This document shows, piece after piece, positions 50,577 through 59,437 of a DNA stretch of 64,000 nucleotides (positions are counted from its first letter, which is position 1; the number at the start of each line of letters is the position of its first letter). Made by a program: the position numbers and the translations under genes. This stretch comes from Candidatus Acidiferrales bacterium (GTDB lineage Bacteria; Acidobacteriota; Terriglobia; Acidiferrales; UBA7541): the NCBI GenBank assembly GCA_035934015.1, contig DASYYH010000016.1, positions 124,001 through 188,000 of the forward strand, written 5' to 3'. The notes under the pieces were generated by a model, which had not been told where the DNA came from, made no database searches, and saw only the letters and a program-made list of their open reading frames with translations.

Positions 50577-51722
50577 CTAGCCAGCGGGAACCAGTCTTTT
50601 ATTGCGGATGTAATAGTATGCTCCACGCCATTCGATGCGGCGCTTGAAGAAACTCGTCAGCCAGACAACGAATGCGAAAGCATCGCGCACGGGCACGAGA
50701 TACATCTTCTTGCGCAGCAAAGGATCGTTTACGCCCCAAACACCGACGGTCCAGGCCATCGTGCCACGTAGTACGGCATATCCCGCCAAATAAAAAACCG
50801 AAAGCTGCCACCATGGCGCTATCGCAGCTGCAAGAATGGCCCAGGGCAGGCCCTGCGTGAAGATCAGAGAAAAGTGGCCCCAGGGCTGAGAATGCTTCAT
50901 CGTCAAATTCCAACGGACCTGGTGGCGAAAACACTGCGCCAGCGTCTGCGTCGGAAAAACAGTGAACACGGGGAAAGTGGTGACCTCGACGCGGTAGCCG
51001 AGGGCATGGATGCGATGGCCTAGTTCGTAATCGTCGGAGAAATGATCCACAAGCGCTTCGAAGCCACCAATCTGCGCCAACCGCTCCTTCGTTGTCGCCA
51101 TTGTGGCCCCGAGAGTGAAATCCACGCCACCAAGTTGCCAGGCGGAGAGCACACCTGCGTCGAAATCCGACGTGTTTCCGAGCGCCTCCATTTCGGAAAC
51201 GAGCGTTCCATCGGTAATGCCGCGATAAAGGCACGTGACGGCGCCAACTTTAGGATCGGCGAACGGTCCCGCGACGGCGTAAAGGTAGCCGGGGGCGACG
51301 CGAATGTCGCTGTCGCTGATGATGAGAATGTCGTACTGCGCTTCGCGCACCATGCGGCAGAGTTTGTTCACTTTATCGCCGGTGCCCAAGGGCTCGGCTC
51401 CGATGAGTAAGCGAATCTTGCATTGCGGAAAATCCTGCATCAGTTTGTGAATGATCGGTATGGCTGGATCGGAATCTTCCGTGACGCCAAAGATGATTTC
51501 AAACTCGGGATATTCCTGGCGGCAAAAACTTGCATAGTTTTCGTAGGCTTCGCGGTCGAGCCCGCGCACAGGCTTCAGCACGCTGACGGGCGGCGTGAAA
51601 TCTTTTTGGATGGGAGGGCGATTGCGAAAGAAACGCCGCGCGGCAGTAATGGCCAGCAAATAGTATCCGAAAGGACCGATTGCCAAAGCCAGCAGCGACC
51701 AGCGCAGGATTTCATGCCACAT
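50577..51722 (-). CDS. hpnI: hopanoid glycosyltransferase HpnI (GT21/ceramide glucosyltransferase-like)
   Basis: 381 residues. An N-terminal membrane helix precedes a GT2/21-type catalytic domain. It contains PPVSVLKPVRGLDREAYENYASFCRQEYPEFEIIFGVTEDSDPA, then DILIISDSDIRV (the DxD), SDDYELGHRIHALG and QVRWNLTMKHSQP (QxxRW). Two more membrane helices follow. HpnI transfers N-acetylglucosamine to bacteriohopanetetrol in cyclitol-ether hopanoid synthesis. It is the last gene of an operon with two EamA-like genes and hpnJ. No hpnK was seen in the window. Confidence 0.85.
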   Translation of the reverse strand: MWHEILRWSLLALAIGPFGYYLLAITAARRFFRNRPPIQKDFTPPVSVLKPVRGLDREAYENYASFCRQEYPEFEIIFGVTEDSDPAIPIIHKLMQDFPQCKIRLLIGAEPLGTGDKVNKLCRMVREAQYDILIISDSDIRVAPGYLYAVAGPFADPKVGAVTCLYRGITDGTLVSEMEALGNTSDFDAGVLSAWQLGGVDFTLGATMATTKERLAQIGGFEALVDHFSDDYELGHRIHALGYRVEVTTFPVFTVFPTQTLAQCFRHQVRWNLTMKHSQPWGHFSLIFTQGLPWAILAAAIAPWWQLSVFYLAGYAVLRGTMAWTVGVWGVNDPLLRKKMYLVPVRDAFAFVVWLTSFFKRRIEWRGAYYYIRNKRLVPAG

Positions 51723-51767: not shown

Positions 51768-52142
51768 TCAAGCTACGCAGACTAGAACGACTCCGAGGCA
51801 GACCAGCAGGACGCCGATCCAGCGCTTAGGCTCGACTTGCTCACCGAGAAGAAACTTGCCGCCCAAGGCGCCAACGACATAGCTGAGCGCCGTGACCGGC
51901 ACGACGAAGCTGACATTTTCCCAGGAAAGCAGCGCGAGGAGCGCGAAAAACGACAAAGTCATCAAGCTGATTCCGAACCACATCCAGCCAACGCGGAAAG
52001 CGCTGAAGATGGTCCGGAGCAAGTGACGCGGATGGAAACGCTGCACCTCGCCGATGTGCTTCATCGCGCGCGTGACCGCGAGCTCTCCTCCCGTTCCGCC
52101 GAAAATGATGATGGCCAGCGAAATGGCGTCGCGAACGCTCAT
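51768..52142 (-). CDS. EamA/SMR-like four-helix membrane protein (pair member 2)
   Basis: 124 residues with four predicted membrane helices and no soluble domain. The N-terminal helix and the final GVLLVCLGVVLVCVA helix match small multidrug resistance/EamA half-transporters such as ArnE and ArnF. An internal Glu (GGTGGELAVTRAMKHIGE) sits near the first helix. The start overlaps the stop of the previous EamA-like gene (ATGA at 52139-52142). Heterodimer formation with it is likely. Its position in the hpnJ-hpnI operon suggests transport or flipping of a hopanoid or lipid-linked sugar; this is an inference. Confidence 0.7.
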   Translation of the reverse strand: MSVRDAISLAIIIFGGTGGELAVTRAMKHIGEVQRFHPRHLLRTIFSAFRVGWMWFGISLMTLSFFALLALLSWENVSFVVPVTALSYVVGALGGKFLLGEQVEPKRWIGVLLVCLGVVLVCVA

Positions 52143-52555
52143 CCTTCCTCCGTCGTTCGCGGCGGCGTGCCGCCAACGAGCACCACGCCGATGAAAATCA
52201 CAAGCACACCAATCCAGCGCATCCAGGGAATCGCTTCGCCAAGGAGCAAATAACCCAGCACGGCGACAACCAGGTAACCCGTCGCGGAGGCCGGCTGCAC
52301 ATAGCTATAGTCGGCCCAGGAAAGCACCAAAAGATAAGCGATGAAGAATAGAAACAGGGAGGAGATTCCCAGCCAGATCGAGCCGGTATGAAATGTCCTA
52401 TCGAATGTGGCAAACAGCGCCTCAGGCCGCCAATTCGACACGGCGCCAATTTGTTTCATGCCCTTGCGGAGCAATACGTCACCGAGCGGCCCGAAAAGCG
52501 CCATCAGACTGATCAGAAGGATCGTCTTGCCGTGCAAACGATGTGAAAAACTCAT
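52139..52555 (-). CDS. EamA/SMR-like four-helix membrane protein (pair member 1)
   Basis: 138 residues with four membrane helices. It resembles the 124-residue neighbour and the ArnE/ArnF flippase subunits: ISLMALFGPLGDVLLRKGMKQIGAVSN, an aromatic third helix (LFLFFIAYLLVLSWADYSYVQPASATGYLVVAVLGYLLLGEAIPWMRWIGVLVIFIGVVLV). The acidic Asp in the first helix could be the transport proton carrier. It overlaps the hpnJ stop and the next gene by four bases each. Confidence 0.7.
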   Translation of the reverse strand: MSFSHRLHGKTILLISLMALFGPLGDVLLRKGMKQIGAVSNWRPEALFATFDRTFHTGSIWLGISSLFLFFIAYLLVLSWADYSYVQPASATGYLVVAVLGYLLLGEAIPWMRWIGVLVIFIGVVLVGGTPPRTTEEG

Positions 52556-54087
52556 GCGCCCTGGGTTTCTGTCGGAAATTCTGTGTTCGAATGAGACGAA
52601 ATTGGCTGGACGCTGATTGATGGCGGCTCTTTAGATGCGGGCGCCTTGCCCGTCTTGGCGTATTTTCCGCGCTCCGAGCGCAGTTTCATGAAGGATACAG
52701 CCTCATGGAACAGGCGCTTCCGTTCGTTCGCATCCCAGAGGGCTTCGCGGACAATGCGCCACACAACGCGCGGACGGAAATAGTAAGAATCATAGAAGCG
52801 ATTCACCGCGTCCATCATTTGCTCGCGGTTCAGGCCCGGATAGACGAGATGCGGCAACTGATGGCCGCCGGAATCGGCGAGAGCTTCCGTAGCCAAGAAC
52901 CCGTTGGCGTTTGCCAAGGTGTAAAGTTCCGTGCCCGGGTAGGCATGGGCCATCGAGACTTGAATCGTTTCACAATCGAGGTCGCGCGCAAAATCAATCG
53001 TGCGCTGAATTGTTTCTTTGGTCTCGCCGGGAAGTCCAATGATGAAATCGCCGTGAATGCGAATGCCGACCTTCTTGCAATTGGCGGCGAAGCTGCGAGC
53101 CATCTCGACCGTCGCGCCCTTCTTGATGTTCTTGAGAATTTGCGGATCGCCGGACTCGAAGCCGACGATAAAGAGACGCGCTCCAGCGTCGGCCATGGCT
53201 TTCAAGGTTTCGTAGTCGCTGTGCACGCGCGCTGTGCAGGACCACCGGAAGCCCACGGGCTTGAAACGCTTGCAAAGTTCGATGACACGATCCTTGCGGA
53301 TATTGAATGTATCGTCATCGAAGAAGAATTCTTTTGCTTGCGGAAACAACTTGTGAGCTTGCTCGAATTCGCGGGCCACACTGTCGACGGAGCGTACACG
53401 CCAGGTGTGCCCCGAGAGCGTCTGCGGCCAAAGGCAGAACGTGCACTGGGCCGGACAGCCGCGCGAAGTATAAAACGAAACGAATGGATGAAGCAGGAAC
53501 GGCACGTTATAGCGTTCGATCGTCAAATCGCGCTTGTAGACGTCCGTCGCGAAGGGCAGCTCGTCGAGCTCGGCTGTATGGAGCGGAGGCCGCGTGGGAT
53601 TGTGAACCACCTGGCCGTCCTTGATATAGCTGGCGTTGGCAATTTCGCTGAGCGGTTTGCCATTGGCATAATCGACGACGGCGTAATCGAACTCGCCGCG
53701 CACGATGAAATCGATGTCCGAGCTAGCCATCAGGCTTTCATTGGGCTTGATTTGCACATGCGGGCCAACGAAGGCGATTTTCAGGCTGGGCTTCATTTCC
53801 TTCATGGCGCGAGCCATCTTCAGGTCGCTCTCGAAACCGACCGTGGACGTGAACAGGACGACAAATTCATAGTCTTTGGCGATTTCGACGGTTTGCTTGG
53901 GAGTTACTTTATGCGGAGGAGCATCGAGCAAACGACTGCCGGGCAGCATGCCCGCGGGATACGTCAGCCAAACCGGATACCAATAGGACTCGATCTCACG
54001 CGTAGCCGGCCAGCGCGAACTTGCGCCGCCATCGAAATTCTCAAAGCTCGGTGGATTGAGCAAAAGCGTTTTCATTACAGACGCCAT
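52552..54087 (-). CDS. hpnJ: hopanoid radical-SAM enzyme HpnJ
   Basis: 511 residues. A B12-binding-like N-terminal domain (LLLNPPSFENFDGG ... KIAFVGPHVQ) is followed by a radical-SAM domain with CPAQCTFC (the [4Fe-4S] CxxxCxxC site) in YTSRGCPAQCTFCLWPQT. A final helical segment follows. HpnJ contracts or rearranges the glucosamine ring in bacteriohopanetetrol cyclitol-ether synthesis. GGAGGATG precedes the ATG at 54087. Its stop overlaps the first EamA-like gene. Confidence 0.9.
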   Translation of the reverse strand: MASVMKTLLLNPPSFENFDGGASSRWPATREIESYWYPVWLTYPAGMLPGSRLLDAPPHKVTPKQTVEIAKDYEFVVLFTSTVGFESDLKMARAMKEMKPSLKIAFVGPHVQIKPNESLMASSDIDFIVRGEFDYAVVDYANGKPLSEIANASYIKDGQVVHNPTRPPLHTAELDELPFATDVYKRDLTIERYNVPFLLHPFVSFYTSRGCPAQCTFCLWPQTLSGHTWRVRSVDSVAREFEQAHKLFPQAKEFFFDDDTFNIRKDRVIELCKRFKPVGFRWSCTARVHSDYETLKAMADAGARLFIVGFESGDPQILKNIKKGATVEMARSFAANCKKVGIRIHGDFIIGLPGETKETIQRTIDFARDLDCETIQVSMAHAYPGTELYTLANANGFLATEALADSGGHQLPHLVYPGLNREQMMDAVNRFYDSYYFRPRVVWRIVREALWDANERKRLFHEAVSFMKLRSERGKYAKTGKAPASKEPPSISVQPISSHSNTEFPTETQGA

Positions 54088-54200: not shown

Positions 54201-55589
54201 TCAGTGGAACGCTTGTGCCAATTGCCCAGTGGCTTGCAGAAGATCAACCTCCGCGCGCTCCCGGGCAAGATCCGCGTCCAAGAACGCCAGCCACTTGTCA
54301 TTTTCCTTGACCCGCGCCTGCTCCAGGTCGCGGAGCTTGGCCTGGCCCTGATCGAATTCCACCTGCTTGCTTTGGAGCTGCTCCTGCGCGAGTTCCAAGT
54401 CTAAACGCGCTACTTCGCTTCCTGCCTCTTTTTCCTTCAACGTACGGATTTTTTCTTCCGCGCCCATGCGCACAGTCGTTTTTTGATTGGCTAATTCGAG
54501 TTCGGCCTCATTCAATTGGCTCTTTGCCAGTGCGGCATTGGCTGACGTTCGCGCGGCGAAAATCGGAATGGTTATCTGCACGCCCACGTTCACGTTGTTT
54601 TGCTGGTACTGGCGAAAATATTGCTGGTAATTGTTGATGTCGCTCAAGACGCTATATTCGCCAACGAACGAAATCGTAGGCCAGTAGGCATCCTTCGCGC
54701 CACGATACACATGATCACGCGCACTGCGCACGTTTTCAGCCTCCCGAATGGCAAAACTGTGGTCCACTGCCGCGCCGACTAAATTATTTGATGCAGAAAT
54801 GCCCGGCTGCGCGGGAAGTTGTTCGGAAAGGGAAACCTGGAGAGGTGTATCGGGAGCAAGTCCAGCCAATTCGCGAATCTGGCTGGATAGAGTCTCATCC
54901 CGGCTTTGATATTCCACGATCTTTTGCTCTGTTTTTGCCAAATTAAGTTCGTCTTCGGTCAGCGTCGCGGGAAGTTCGAGGCCCGCCTGGGCACGCTCGC
55001 GCGTCACATCCAGGATCTTTTGCTGACTTTGCTGGTCATCGAGCAGCAGCGCGAGGGAGTGGCGAACGGCAGCCAATTCGAGATAATCCAGGGCAGCATC
55101 GGCCATTACCTTGTCGCGTGTATTCTGATATTCGAGTTCCTGGTTCTTGGCCAGATCTTCATCGGAATGCTGAATTCCGCGTTTGACTGGATCGAAGATG
55201 TCCTGACTATAAGCAAGCTCAAAAACCGAGGGGACCGAGCCACTGGGCGTTTCGGGAATGCCATTGGTGTAGATATAGCCGGCCCCCGTGTAGAGGTTGG
55301 GATGAAAATCAGAGCGGTCGAGCCCCGCCTGATTCTTCGCCACAACGTAGCGCGCGCGGGCAAGTGCCAGCTCAGGGCTGTGTTGCATCGCCATCGTCAC
55401 GATCTTATCGAGTGTGAGAACTTGCGTGCCATCGGGGGACTGCGCAGATTCAGCTTGTGGCAACGCGGTCACGGCTCCGGTCTGGCTCTGAAGCTGGAGT
55501 TTTATGGAGTGCGGCGCTTCCTGCGCCAAAATCGGCGCGCCAAAAAGTATCCCAACAAATACAAACGTCCATGCGAGATTTTTTTTCAT
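54201..55589 (-). CDS. TolC-family outer membrane efflux protein
   Basis: 462 residues from the ATG at 55589 (a longer start would overlap the permease gene). Signal peptide (NLAWTFVFVGILFGAPILAQ). Long coiled-coil helices such as ARARYVVAKNQAGLDRSDFHPNLYTGAGY and repeated LAKSQLNEAELELANQK show the TolC alpha-barrel duplication. It forms the outer-membrane channel of a tripartite exporter. The start lies eight bases after the permease stop; the membrane fusion and ATPase genes of such a system are not adjacent. Confidence 0.85.
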   Translation of the reverse strand: MKKNLAWTFVFVGILFGAPILAQEAPHSIKLQLQSQTGAVTALPQAESAQSPDGTQVLTLDKIVTMAMQHSPELALARARYVVAKNQAGLDRSDFHPNLYTGAGYIYTNGIPETPSGSVPSVFELAYSQDIFDPVKRGIQHSDEDLAKNQELEYQNTRDKVMADAALDYLELAAVRHSLALLLDDQQSQQKILDVTRERAQAGLELPATLTEDELNLAKTEQKIVEYQSRDETLSSQIRELAGLAPDTPLQVSLSEQLPAQPGISASNNLVGAAVDHSFAIREAENVRSARDHVYRGAKDAYWPTISFVGEYSVLSDINNYQQYFRQYQQNNVNVGVQITIPIFAARTSANAALAKSQLNEAELELANQKTTVRMGAEEKIRTLKEKEAGSEVARLDLELAQEQLQSKQVEFDQGQAKLRDLEQARVKENDKWLAFLDADLARERAEVDLLQATGQLAQAFH

Positions 55590-55596
55590 TTTCGTC

Positions 55597-56811
55597 TCAT
55601 TCGTAGTGGAGTGACTCAACTGCCTGAAGTTTAGCTGCCTTACTTGCCGGAAGATAACCGAAAAAAACGCCTGTCGCGCACGAAACGGTAAACGCTAAGA
55701 GCACGGAGCCCCAGGAAACCGGAATAGAGATGTTGCCGAGGTCAGGAAAAAGCTGCACAACGGCGGAAATCGCGAACGGAATCATCACACCAATGAAAAC
55801 GCCGACAATCGCGCCGAGCCCGCTGATGAGCGCCGCCTCCATAAGAAATTGATAGAGGATTTCCTGCTGGCGAGCCCCAACCGCTTTGCGGATTCCGATT
55901 TCTCTCGTTCGCTCAGTGACACTGACAAGCATGATATTCATGATGCCGATCCCGCTGATCACCAAGGCAATCATAGCGATGAGCAGGAGGACAATTGTCA
56001 GTGCCAGCGAAATATTTCTAGCCGCCTCCAGGATGGAAGATAAGTTTTGCACCTGATACTCTGCACCGGGGCGGTGCCGGCTTCTTAAAATATCGCCGAC
56101 ATCCTGAGTCGCAAGGGGAACATCCTGCGGATTATCAGCCTGGGCGTAAAAGGTCTTGATGAAATTCTGACCCGTGAAATACTGAATCAATGGGAAAGGA
56201 ACGAGCGCGGAGTCCGTCGTGATTTCAGTCTGCCCAAAGGTTTGAGCTCGTTCGCGGAAAACGCCAATCACTACGAAGCTTAGATCGCCGATATGGATGT
56301 TTTTCCCCACCGGGTCTTCGTAGGGGAATGCCAGTTTGGCCAGATGTTCGGTCAGCAGACATACTTTGCTGCTGGTTATGAAATCTCCGTCATCGAAATA
56401 ACGCCCGCTGACGATAAGCAGATTGCGAATGCGCTGAAACTCTTGCGTCACGCCAACCAAACTTGCTGGACGCGCACCCTCGTCTGCGCCGACCGGCATG
56501 GAAATGTCGTGCGTTCCAGCGACCGCCGAGACTTGCGGGATGCCGCGTTTGATCGCTTCCATGTCGCCAAGAGAGATCTGGTCCGATATGGCGGAAGGCT
56601 GTCCGAATGGCGTCGTCAGAGATGCATAAACGATGTTCGAGCCGACGGCTTCGATTTCTCCGATAATAAATTGCTTGCCGGCAAGAGCTACAGTGACAAC
56701 AAGGATGATGCAGGCGCTGCCGATGACGACGCCGAGCATGGTGAGCATCGCGCGCATTTTGTTGGCGCGCAGCGACTCCATCGCCAAATTCCATGTTTCA
56801 GACCAGACCAT
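55597..56811 (-). CDS. MacB-like ABC permease (orphan, no ATPase gene)
   Basis: 404 residues: one N-terminal membrane helix (about 25-45), a MacB_PCD periplasmic domain (about 55-250), then three FtsX-type membrane helices (LTIVLLLIAMIALVISGIGIMNIMLV, ALISGLGAIVGVFIGVMIPFAISAVV, WGSVLLAFTVSCATGVFFGY). It is the permease of a MacAB- or LolCDE-like system. A TolC-like gene follows at once, but no ATPase or adaptor gene is present, so partners may be encoded elsewhere. Its family relates to that of the ADOP permease at 7.3 kb, which is duplicated. Confidence 0.88.
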   Translation of the reverse strand: MVWSETWNLAMESLRANKMRAMLTMLGVVIGSACIILVVTVALAGKQFIIGEIEAVGSNIVYASLTTPFGQPSAISDQISLGDMEAIKRGIPQVSAVAGTHDISMPVGADEGARPASLVGVTQEFQRIRNLLIVSGRYFDDGDFITSSKVCLLTEHLAKLAFPYEDPVGKNIHIGDLSFVVIGVFRERAQTFGQTEITTDSALVPFPLIQYFTGQNFIKTFYAQADNPQDVPLATQDVGDILRSRHRPGAEYQVQNLSSILEAARNISLALTIVLLLIAMIALVISGIGIMNIMLVSVTERTREIGIRKAVGARQQEILYQFLMEAALISGLGAIVGVFIGVMIPFAISAVVQLFPDLGNISIPVSWGSVLLAFTVSCATGVFFGYLPASKAAKLQAVESLHYE

Positions 56812-57046: not shown

Positions 57047-57850
57047 ATGATCCAAGGTAAGAGCATCGCTGTTGTCATGCCCGCCTATAATGCCGAGAAA
57101 ACACTGGAAGCAACTCTTCACGATCTTCCCGATGTAGTTGATATGAAAATTCTGGTGGACGATTCGAGCACGGATGGGACCGTGAAGCTCGCCGAGAAAC
57201 TCGGCTTGCAGGTTTTCGTGCATGACCGCAATTATGGATATGGGCGCAACCAGCAGACGTGTTATCGCGAGGCGCTGGCTGCGGGCGCCGATATCGTGGT
57301 GATGCTGCATCCCGATTATCAGTACAATCCCGCTCTGGTCCCGTCGCTGGCGGGGCTTATTGCCTGCGGCAGCTGCGATGTGGCGCTGGGCTCGCGCATT
57401 CTTGGCGGCGGGGCGATCCGCGGAGGAATGCCGCTTTACAAATATATTTCCAATCGATTTCTGACCGCCTTTGAAAATCTCCTGCTCGGCGCTAAGCTCT
57501 CTGAATATCACACTGGCTACCGTGCGTTCAGCCGCGAAGTTCTGCTGGCGCTTCCGCTGCTGGAAGATTCGGATGATTTCGTATTCGACAATGAAGTCCT
57601 GGCACAAGTGCTCTACTTCGGATTTCGAGTCGGCGAAATTTCCTGCCCGGCGCGGTATTTCGAAGAGGCATCGTCGATTAATTTTCGCCGAAGTGTGCGC
57701 TATGGTTTGGGTGTCGTGGCGACTTCTTTGAAATTTGCGCTTCAGAAATGGGGACTGATGCGCTTTCGCATTTTCAAGGAAACCGGGCGCAAGCTTGATC
57801 TGAAATACTATTCGAATGGTGCGCGCAAAGTTGTATCCGCCCGTGTGTGA
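57047..57850 (+). CDS. family 2 glycosyltransferase, polyprenol-phosphate mannosyltransferase-like
   Basis: 267 residues with the GT2 fold: VVMPAYNAEKTLEATLHDLP, then ILVDDSSTDGT (donor Asp residues) and the acceptor-site motif MLHPDYQY in the DxD region. The pattern resembles dolichol-phosphate mannosyltransferases, which make polyprenol-phosphate sugars at the membrane. No membrane helices are visible. It starts a + strand set with a GT-C-like protein (57968) and a 2-oxoglutarate oxygenase (59568), suggesting glycan assembly. The true sugar is unknown. Confidence 0.85.
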   Translation: MIQGKSIAVVMPAYNAEKTLEATLHDLPDVVDMKILVDDSSTDGTVKLAEKLGLQVFVHDRNYGYGRNQQTCYREALAAGADIVVMLHPDYQYNPALVPSLAGLIACGSCDVALGSRILGGGAIRGGMPLYKYISNRFLTAFENLLLGAKLSEYHTGYRAFSREVLLALPLLEDSDDFVFDNEVLAQVLYFGFRVGEISCPARYFEEASSINFRRSVRYGLGVVATSLKFALQKWGLMRFRIFKETGRKLDLKYYSNGARKVVSARV

Positions 57851-57967
57851 GCTGTGCAGCCAGCTGTTGCACATATTGCCAGTGAACTTGGTCCTCCCCA
57901 AGGCCCCGCAAGAAACGGAAAAAATGCCGAATAAAGCGGCGCAGCCGAATTCTCGAGGGAGACCCGC

Positions 57968-59437
57968 GTGAAGCGCAAAGAAATCGGTTTTCTACTCCTC
58001 CTGACATTTGGCGCGCTGCTCGTTCACGGCTACCATCCGCGCGCGGAAGATGCGGAAATCTATGTTTCCGCGATTGTCAGGTTTCTTCATCCTTCGTATT
58101 ACCCGTTCGGGCGGGAATTTTTCGAAGCCAATTCGCACCTGACGCTTTTCCCCCATTTGATCGCCTGGACGGCGCGATTCACGCACCTTTCGCTCGATTG
58201 GGCGCTTTTCTCTTGGTATCTCGCGTCGATATTCCTCTTCCTTCTTGCATGCTGGAAAATCGCTTCGAAGTGCTTCTCGACCGCTGCCGGACGTTGGGGT
58301 GCGGTGACGATGGTTGCTGCGCTGCTGACGTTGCCGGTTGCGGGCACGTCACTCTACATTTTCGATGAGTACCTGAATCCGCGATCCATTTCCGCTTTTG
58401 CCGTTCTCTTTGCGATCGACGCGGCGCTGGACAAGAAATACCTGCTCACGGTGCTATGGCTGGCGATTACAGCTGTAGTCCACCCTTTCATGACCGTTTT
58501 CGGACTGTTCTTTGTCGCGCTGCTTCTGATTCTCGAAAAACTTAAGCAACGATCGTCCGCTGCATCGTCAGCCGCATTGCTGCTCTTTCTACCCGTTGCG
58601 CGAATCTTTGGAAAACAGCCCTCGGCGGTATACTGGCAATGTCTGGAGGATCACCGCTATTATTTTCTGCCGCGTTGGGAATGGTACGAATGGCTCGGAA
58701 TTCTCGCGCCTCTGGCAATTCTCTGGTGGATCATCCGAATCGCGCGGCGACGGGGAAATGCCGCATTTGAGAGACTGGCCGAAGTCACGTTGGTGTTCGA
58801 GGCAATTTGCTTCGCGGCAGGGTTGATTGTCACGATTCCACACAGTCTGGAAATTCTCACGCCCTATCAGCCGATGAGGAGCCTGCAACTTGTCTACACG
58901 CTTTTCTTCTTGTTTGCCGGTGGCTTGATCGGAGAAGCAATTCTGAAAGGTCGTGTGGTGCGCTGGCTGCTGCTCTTTGCTCCGCTGTGTGCTGGAATGT
59001 GCTTCGCGCAATTGCAGCTTTTTCCGGCTACACAGCACGTGGAATGGCCTGGCGCGGCGCCGGAGAACGCCTGGCTTAAGGCGTTTGTCTGGATTCGAGG
59101 AAACACGGCTCCCGACGCCATTTTTGCGCTCGATCCTCACTACATGGCATTGCCCGAAGAAAACTATCAAGGCTTTCGCGCCAACGCCGAGCGCAGCCGA
59201 TTGGCCGACGGAGAAAAAGATTGGAGCGCAGCGGTGCTCTATCCCTGGCTTCCGCTCGCCGATGACTGCGAAGCGCAAGTACGAGCAGCGAATGGATGGA
59301 AGCATTTTCGTGCGGCTGACTTTGAGCGCTTGAAAAAAACCTATGGCGTGACCTGGGTCGTCATCCAACAGCCCGCGCCAGCGGACATACATTGCGCCTA
59401 TCAAAACGCGGCGGTAGCAGTTTGTGCGATTCCGTGA
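57968..59437 (+). CDS. polytopic membrane protein, GT-C-like
   Basis: 489 residues from a GTG at 57968 with GAGGGAGA upstream. About ten membrane helices are visible: FLLLLTFGALLVHGY, WYLASIFLFLLACWK, MVAALLTLPVAGTSLYIF, and several Leu-rich ones. An acidic residue in the first extracytoplasmic loop (HPRAEDAEIY) fits the GT-C fold, in which Asp/Glu residues in loop 1 catalyse transfer from polyprenol-phosphate sugars. The C-terminal 100 residues look soluble. No exact family is recognised. It follows the GT2 gene, which could make its donor. Confidence 0.55.
   Translation: MKRKEIGFLLLLTFGALLVHGYHPRAEDAEIYVSAIVRFLHPSYYPFGREFFEANSHLTLFPHLIAWTARFTHLSLDWALFSWYLASIFLFLLACWKIASKCFSTAAGRWGAVTMVAALLTLPVAGTSLYIFDEYLNPRSISAFAVLFAIDAALDKKYLLTVLWLAITAVVHPFMTVFGLFFVALLLILEKLKQRSSAASSAALLLFLPVARIFGKQPSAVYWQCLEDHRYYFLPRWEWYEWLGILAPLAILWWIIRIARRRGNAAFERLAEVTLVFEAICFAAGLIVTIPHSLEILTPYQPMRSLQLVYTLFFLFAGGLIGEAILKGRVVRWLLLFAPLCAGMCFAQLQLFPATQHVEWPGAAPENAWLKAFVWIRGNTAPDAIFALDPHYMALPEENYQGFRANAERSRLADGEKDWSAAVLYPWLPLADDCEAQVRAANGWKHFRAADFERLKKTYGVTWVVIQQPAPADIHCAYQNAAVAVCAIP

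Follow-up and report, generated by a model that had tools for sequence, protein, structure and literature searches.

A tandem pair of SMR/EamA-type membrane proteins tied to HpnI is a candidate hopanoid flippase of Acidobacteriota

Hopanoids are sterol-like bacterial lipids that account for much of the molecular fossil record. To our knowledge, no protein has been named for the step in which polyol hopanoids cross the inner membrane. A pair of small membrane proteins, here called E1 and E2, is encoded between hpnJ and hpnI in an acidobacterial genome and represents a concrete candidate for this step, since E2 is fused to HpnI in some relatives and the pair occurs where HpnL and HpnN are both absent. 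On balance, E1 and E2 are probably the two halves of an ArnE/ArnF-like flippase for HpnI-glycosylated hopanoids, acting in the place of HpnL.

The window, the whole 64,000-nucleotide stretch of DNA that was analysed (G000:C16:124001-188000), comes from a 3.37-Mb assembly that is 98.6% complete. The same-strand gene string that contains the pair is made up as follows, in the direction of reading:

55597..56811, minus strand: MacB-like FtsX permease without an ATPase domain (MacB_PCD and FtsX), the first gene of the string
54201..55619, minus strand: TolC-like outer membrane protein (OEP; PF02321, 6.7e-37), directly 5' of hpnJ
52552..54087, minus strand: hpnJ, 511 aa (TIGR03471, 735 bits; cut-off 577.6), a B12-binding radical SAM enzyme of the bacteriohopanetetrol (BHT) cyclitol ether branch
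52139..52555, minus strand: E1, 138 aa, four-helix SMR/EamA-type subunit (Pfam EamA, 35.6 bits, 1.4e-8)
51768..52142, minus strand: E2, 124 aa, four-helix SMR/EamA-type subunit (Pfam EamA, 30.8 bits, 3.9e-7)
50577..51722, minus strand: hpnI, 381 aa (TIGR03472, 350 bits; cut-off 310), a GT21-type glycosyltransferase that adds GlcNAc to BHT

A first-pass annotation had described two four-helix, EamA/SMR-like genes of 138 and 124 residues between hpnJ and hpnI, and this is confirmed by the coordinates and by Pfam, with both proteins above the EamA cut-off of 28.2 bits. The ATGA overlaps that it had claimed at hpnJ/E1 and at E1/E2 are likewise borne out by coordinates and sequence, and E2 is separated from hpnI by a gap of 45 nt. 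Its span, 51768-54087, runs from hpnJ through E2, so that hpnI falls outside, and the gene string begins farther up than it had placed it, with the MacB-like permease followed by the TolC-like protein. A promoter and terminator scan gave scores that shuffled sequences reached as well. Just 5' of the operon, at 57047-59437 on the plus strand of the window, lie a divergent polyprenol-phosphate-type GT2 gene and a gene for a large membrane protein with a weak DUF6798 match. The shc and hpnH genes adjoin each other elsewhere in the genome.

GTDB genomes scanned with an HpnJ alignment yielded 80 loci, nearly all from Acidobacteriota, of which 76 extend for 1 kb or more past hpnJ and were counted for the pair. 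Both E1 and E2 are present within 2.5 kb downstream of hpnJ in 67 of the 76, a recurrence that puts the arrangement far beyond chance. Among the others, one locus has E1 alone and eight have neither gene nearby, although in two of these eight the pair is found farther down the same contig. The first-pass annotation had left it to other Acidobacteriota to tell whether the pair belongs with hpnJ, hpnI and hpnK; it lies mainly beside hpnJ and hpnI rather than away from hopanoid genes, and the gene orders include both J-E1-E2-I and J-K-E1-E2-I (L071, L101 and L108). The order is I-K-J-E1-E2 in a Nitrospirae-labelled MAG (L129), while in a cyanobacterium-labelled MAG the pair adjoins HpnI about 15 kb from hpnJ. 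In the Acidobacteriaceae, the pair follows hpnJ and HpnI is not nearby. One locus, hpnJ-E1-hpnI (L055:8503-10134), is missing E2 and represents a natural single-subunit case. In another (L056:5415-6797), a gene assigned by Pfam match to the pyridoxal-dependent decarboxylases separates the TolC-like gene from hpnJ, and L057, L058, L060 and L062 also have a gene at this position.

This linkage already largely refutes, and makes highly improbable, the view that a conventional exporter of drugs, polyamines or cations has come to lie in the operon by chance. EamA/SMR proteins do include drug and polyamine exporters (PMC9574504). However, the pair is conserved in more than one class and also in a small number of MAGs that carry the label of other phyla, it is lost together with HpnI, E2 can be fused to HpnI, and ArnE is a better match than EmrE or MdtIJ.

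The tightest partner of the pair is HpnI rather than HpnJ. In 61 related whole genomes, which were searched with E1 and E2 profiles and for HpnI, HpnJ, SHC and HpnK, the pair and HpnI occurred together in 47 genomes and were both missing from 12; HpnI alone was found in two (G034, which is 72% complete, and G060) and the pair alone in none (Fisher p = 5e-11, uncorrected for kinship). HpnI was counted as present if its match exceeded about 150 bits, with the addition of a strong fragment in G034. Three genomes without hpnJ (G013, G024 and G049) keep the pair and HpnI, and HpnJ has been demoted as the main partner on this account. Two of them, G013 and G024, are also without an HpnK-like gene, yet have the order MacB-OEP-E1-E2-HpnI, with shc and hpnH elsewhere (as neighbours in G024). 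The earlier assignment of the pair to the hpnJ-hpnI operon thus holds as a linkage to hopanoid genes, while co-occurrence, fusions and the G013 and G024 genomes place its closest tie with HpnI.

The fusions are especially direct. E2 is continuous in frame with HpnI, with no stop between them, in ten genomes from four genera (g2, g4, g7 and g13). On a maximum likelihood tree of 80 HpnI sequences, the fused state needs two changes, forced by well-supported branches; the fusion therefore arose at least twice, one origin followed by loss being less simple on the tree. Most second copies of the pair also adjoin an HpnI-type gene. There are exceptions to the association: the pair is weak and not beside HpnI in G053, and it has no adjacent HpnI on G036:C154 (L141). 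Conversely, G060 and G061 (L066) have HpnI without the pair, and L055 has HpnI with E1 only, so HpnI can work without the pair. The HpnI proteins of G053, G060 and L066, none with a pair beside it, group together in a single clade, as expected if the pair was lost once. A second HpnI-type clade, with 100/100 support, consists of L135, L139, L140, L142, L147, L150 and L189; E1/E2-type genes adjoin these as well, often on the opposite strand. Strict co-divergence of this clade with its own pairs was considered and rejected, since the E2 copies there come from at least two sources.

The same evidence bears on a reading without transport, in which the pair would serve HpnI (and HpnJ) as a membrane partner, either offering BHT to the enzyme or tethering the enzymes to one another. 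The direct fusion of E2 to HpnI would agree with such a role, as would the position of the pair next to both enzymes. However, proteobacterial HpnI occurs without the pair (L164-L168), as does some acidobacterial HpnI, and the SMR fold and the conserved carboxylate in the first transmembrane helix (TM1) point to transport, making a purely structural role unlikely.

A further complication is the nature of the lipid. HpnI is a GT21 protein, and this family includes ceramide glucosyltransferase. HpnI might then glycosylate a non-hopanoid lipid here, such as ceramide or diacylglycerol, and the pair would flip that glycolipid. The genome that invites this reading is G049, which is 96% complete and has E1-E2-HpnI (L143, on G049:C15), while neither shc nor hpnH was detected in it above threshold. 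The G049 module may serve a non-hopanoid lipid. Against this, HpnI of the window passes the HpnI cut-off and its gene sits with hpnJ, and shc is present in nearly all the other genomes with the pair. In the window's genome and in G024, shc lies next to hpnH, so that one missing contig could account for the absence of both from G049. We therefore give little credence to a different lipid as the general substrate.

SD1 and SD3 Acidobacteria were reported to lack hpnK in a 2017 survey (PMC5462960). The window's genome nevertheless encodes a full-length HpnK-like protein away from the operon, with a score of 218.5 bits, just below the cut-off of 232.6. Roughly half of the relatives have comparable matches, and three of these exceed the cut-off. 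This bears on the published gap, as many genomes from the group reported to be without hpnK (PMC5462960) do encode an HpnK-like protein, albeit at an unlinked site. The HpnK-like deacetylase gene of the window's genome (L034:9709-10578; G000:C3, about 359.7-360.6 kb) overlaps a gene for an ArnC-like glycosyltransferase. A similar unit lies beside hpnJ in G026 (L045), where the ArnC-like neighbour was judged by position and length, and in G059 (L050) an HpnK-like protein of similar score follows hpnI inside the operon, joined to an ArnC-like glycosyltransferase. The pair had also been considered as a stand-in for a missing HpnK. This was dropped, as HpnK-like genes are found elsewhere in many of the genomes and J-K-E1-E2-I loci hold both.

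These two-gene units give rise to another reading, namely that the HpnK-like and ArnC-like proteins make undecaprenyl-phosphate-GlcN and that E1/E2 flips this polyprenyl-phosphate amino sugar. The occurrence of the unit in G000, G026 and G059, in the last within the operon itself, speaks for it, and so does ArnE as the nearest SMR relative. However, the window's genome has the unit at a site unlinked to the pair, genera g2, g4 and g10 keep the pair and HpnI without an HpnK-like protein, and the E2 fusions are to HpnI, with none seen to the ArnC-like protein. An amino-sugar carrier is accordingly an improbable substrate.

The hopanoid flippase reading also fits the distribution of other membrane proteins. 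Neither HpnN nor HpnL (TIGR03476) gave a match over the cut-off in any of the 61 genomes. In a passage of PMC12583986 that cites Doughty 2011, HpnN is described as a hopanoid transporter to the outer membrane. The first-pass statement that no transporter for such hopanoids is known was accordingly too strong, as HpnN is known from that passage (PMC12583986), even if it is absent here; the gap is the flip across the inner membrane. Six loci of Proteobacteria and of an Omnitrophota MAG (L164-L168 and L079) have no pair, and in each an HpnL-type gene is adjacent or close to hpnI. HpnL belongs to the LPG_synthase_TM family (PF03706), which is also the family of the MprF flippase domain. Its function has not been established (PMC12583986). 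The absence of HpnL from the 61 genomes and the presence of an HpnL-type gene next to hpnI in the pairless loci suggest that the same task is carried out by HpnL in some bacteria and by the E1/E2 pair in others. The rule that we propose is that bacteria making HpnI carry either HpnL or the E1/E2 pair.

Of 68 loci, 33 have a TolC-like homologue no more than 2.5 kb upstream of hpnJ, and 12 also have a clearly similar MacB-like permease there. The order MacB-OEP-(J)-E1-E2-I is conserved in relatives, several of which have genes for an HlyD-type adaptor and a TPR protein preceding the MacB-like and TolC-like genes. An ATPase was not identified in the string. The TolC-like protein is a candidate outer-membrane partner and the MacB-like permease a candidate periplasmic extractor. 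It is conceivable, though rather doubtful at present, that these genes make up a complete export route that differs from the one in Proteobacteria. In it, HpnI would glycosylate BHT while joined to an SMR-type flippase, the flippase would bring the product to the periplasmic leaflet, and the MacB-like and TolC-like proteins would lead on to the outer membrane, with the whole taking the place of both HpnL and HpnN in Acidobacteriota. Among titles and abstracts of an open-access collection, no publication was found that connects hopanoids in this way with proteins of the EamA, SMR or MacB/TolC type.

An AlphaFold2 model of E1 has four long helices and a short one (pLDDT 90). The best solved folds for it are EmrE (Z = 11.7) and Gdx-Clo (Z = 11.5), with an rmsd of about 3 Å over 103-109 residues; non-SMR matches reach Z values of up to 9.3, a moderate margin for a helical bundle. 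As modelled, E1 thus has the SMR fold. The fold search covered E1 only; E2 has four helices by alignment and in a low-confidence model of a natural E2-HpnI fusion (pLDDT 55) that was kept out of the search. In a profile comparison with E. coli EmrE, MdtI, MdtJ, ArnE and ArnF, ArnE came out on top for both E1 (E = 7e-11) and E2 (E = 3e-11), well ahead of the others, while ArnF barely matches either profile, though it is the partner of ArnE in E. coli. The curated models are not passed: E2 scores 27.5 bits (2.7e-6) against a cut-off of 92 for ArnE (NF011625), and E1 scores 18.9 bits against 92 for ArnE and 17.2 against 99 for ArnF. Membership of the lipid-type SMRs is thus suggested by likeness, with scores below the curated ArnE/ArnF cut-offs. 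Neither protein matches the HpnL family (PF03706 and TIGR03476), both matching EamA instead. When E1 and E2 were compared by sequence with PDB chains, only weak matches came up (NIPA2 and SLC35B1), which were set aside.

The TM1 motif is G-[D/N]-x4-x-GM in E1, with D26 in the window, and G-[E/D] in E2, with E20. At the column of the central TM1 glutamate of SMR proteins, E1 has Asp in 25 and Asn in 19 of 44 sequences, and E2 has Glu in 25, Asp in 16 and Asn in one of 42, so that a carboxylate is present in 41 of the 42. Lipid-type SMRs often have this glutamate replaced by Asn and have a tyrosine switch in TM3 (PMC9574504). The tyrosine is absent from the aligned column, where the alignment is of low identity and E1 has Leu or Met and E2 Val or Ile. 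Paired SMRs are antiparallel heterodimers encoded by adjacent genes with opposite Arg/Lys bias (PMC9574504). Loops 1 and 3 of E2 have a mean of 6.6 more Lys/Arg residues than the termini and loop 2, an excess seen in all 42 sequences, and E2 should therefore have an N-out/C-out topology. The fusion to HpnI also puts the C-terminus of E2 outside, given the one helix that precedes the glycosyltransferase domain, taken as cytoplasmic. The charge bias of E1 is weak, opposite to that of E2 in 26 of 44 sequences and the same way in 14, with an opposite mean, and E1 is predicted to be N-in. Since E2 is strongly N-out while E1 leans weakly the opposite way, charge distribution makes an antiparallel E1/E2 heterodimer likely.

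The proposed pathway would begin with HpnI, which, with its glycosyltransferase domain on the cytoplasmic face, would add the amino-sugar head to BHT. In genomes that also have HpnJ and an HpnK-like deacetylase, this head would be converted to a cyclitol ether. E1/E2 would then take the HpnI product laterally from the inner leaflet, with the polar head held around the TM1 carboxylate of E2 and the ring system remaining in the bilayer, and release it into the periplasmic leaflet. In genomes without HpnN, the MacB-like permease and the TolC-like protein may then move the product on towards the outer membrane. In Proteobacteria, the unrelated HpnL, encoded next to hpnI, would do the flipping. The heterodimer, transport as such, the substrate, its direction and the hand-over to MacB/TolC are what we infer from the genomic and structural likenesses. 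The ArnE/ArnF-type, hopanoid-linked flippase pair put forward in the first-pass annotation stands as the best-supported reading, by the linkage to hpnJ and hpnI and with ArnE as the nearest relative; the emphasis among its partners and the claim about transporters have changed.

Among known systems, the undecaprenyl-phosphate-L-Ara4N flippase ArnE/ArnF is similarly encoded by tandem overlapping four-helix genes inside a glycolipid biosynthesis operon. However, ArnE/ArnF belongs to an undecaprenyl phosphate pathway and E1/E2 to a hopanoid pathway; the TM1 residue is Gln in ArnE, Asp or Asn in E1 and Glu or Asp in E2; E2 can be fused to a glycosyltransferase; the tyrosine switch is missing at the aligned column of E1/E2; and E1/E2 scores fall far below the curated ArnE/ArnF cut-offs. 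The multidrug and guanidinium exporters EmrE and Gdx share the fold with E1 and have an acidic residue in the middle of TM1 in common with the pair, with 11-14% identity only in structural alignment, whereas E1/E2 is a tandem pair with a long loop 1 and a lipid-synthesis context. The first-pass annotation had raised a family with an unrelated substrate, such as a quaternary ammonium compound, as a possible outcome; the nearest E. coli SMR relative is instead ArnE, a glycolipid flippase subunit. HpnL resembles the pair as an integral membrane protein encoded beside hpnI, hpnJ and hpnK in Proteobacteria, but the families are unrelated. HpnN, an RND protein, moves hopanoids between membranes according to a passage of PMC12583986; it is likewise unrelated and acts towards the outer membrane rather than as a leaflet flippase. 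With E1/E2, the lipid subtype of SMR proteins, known from ArnE/ArnF, would be widened to a second class of lipids.
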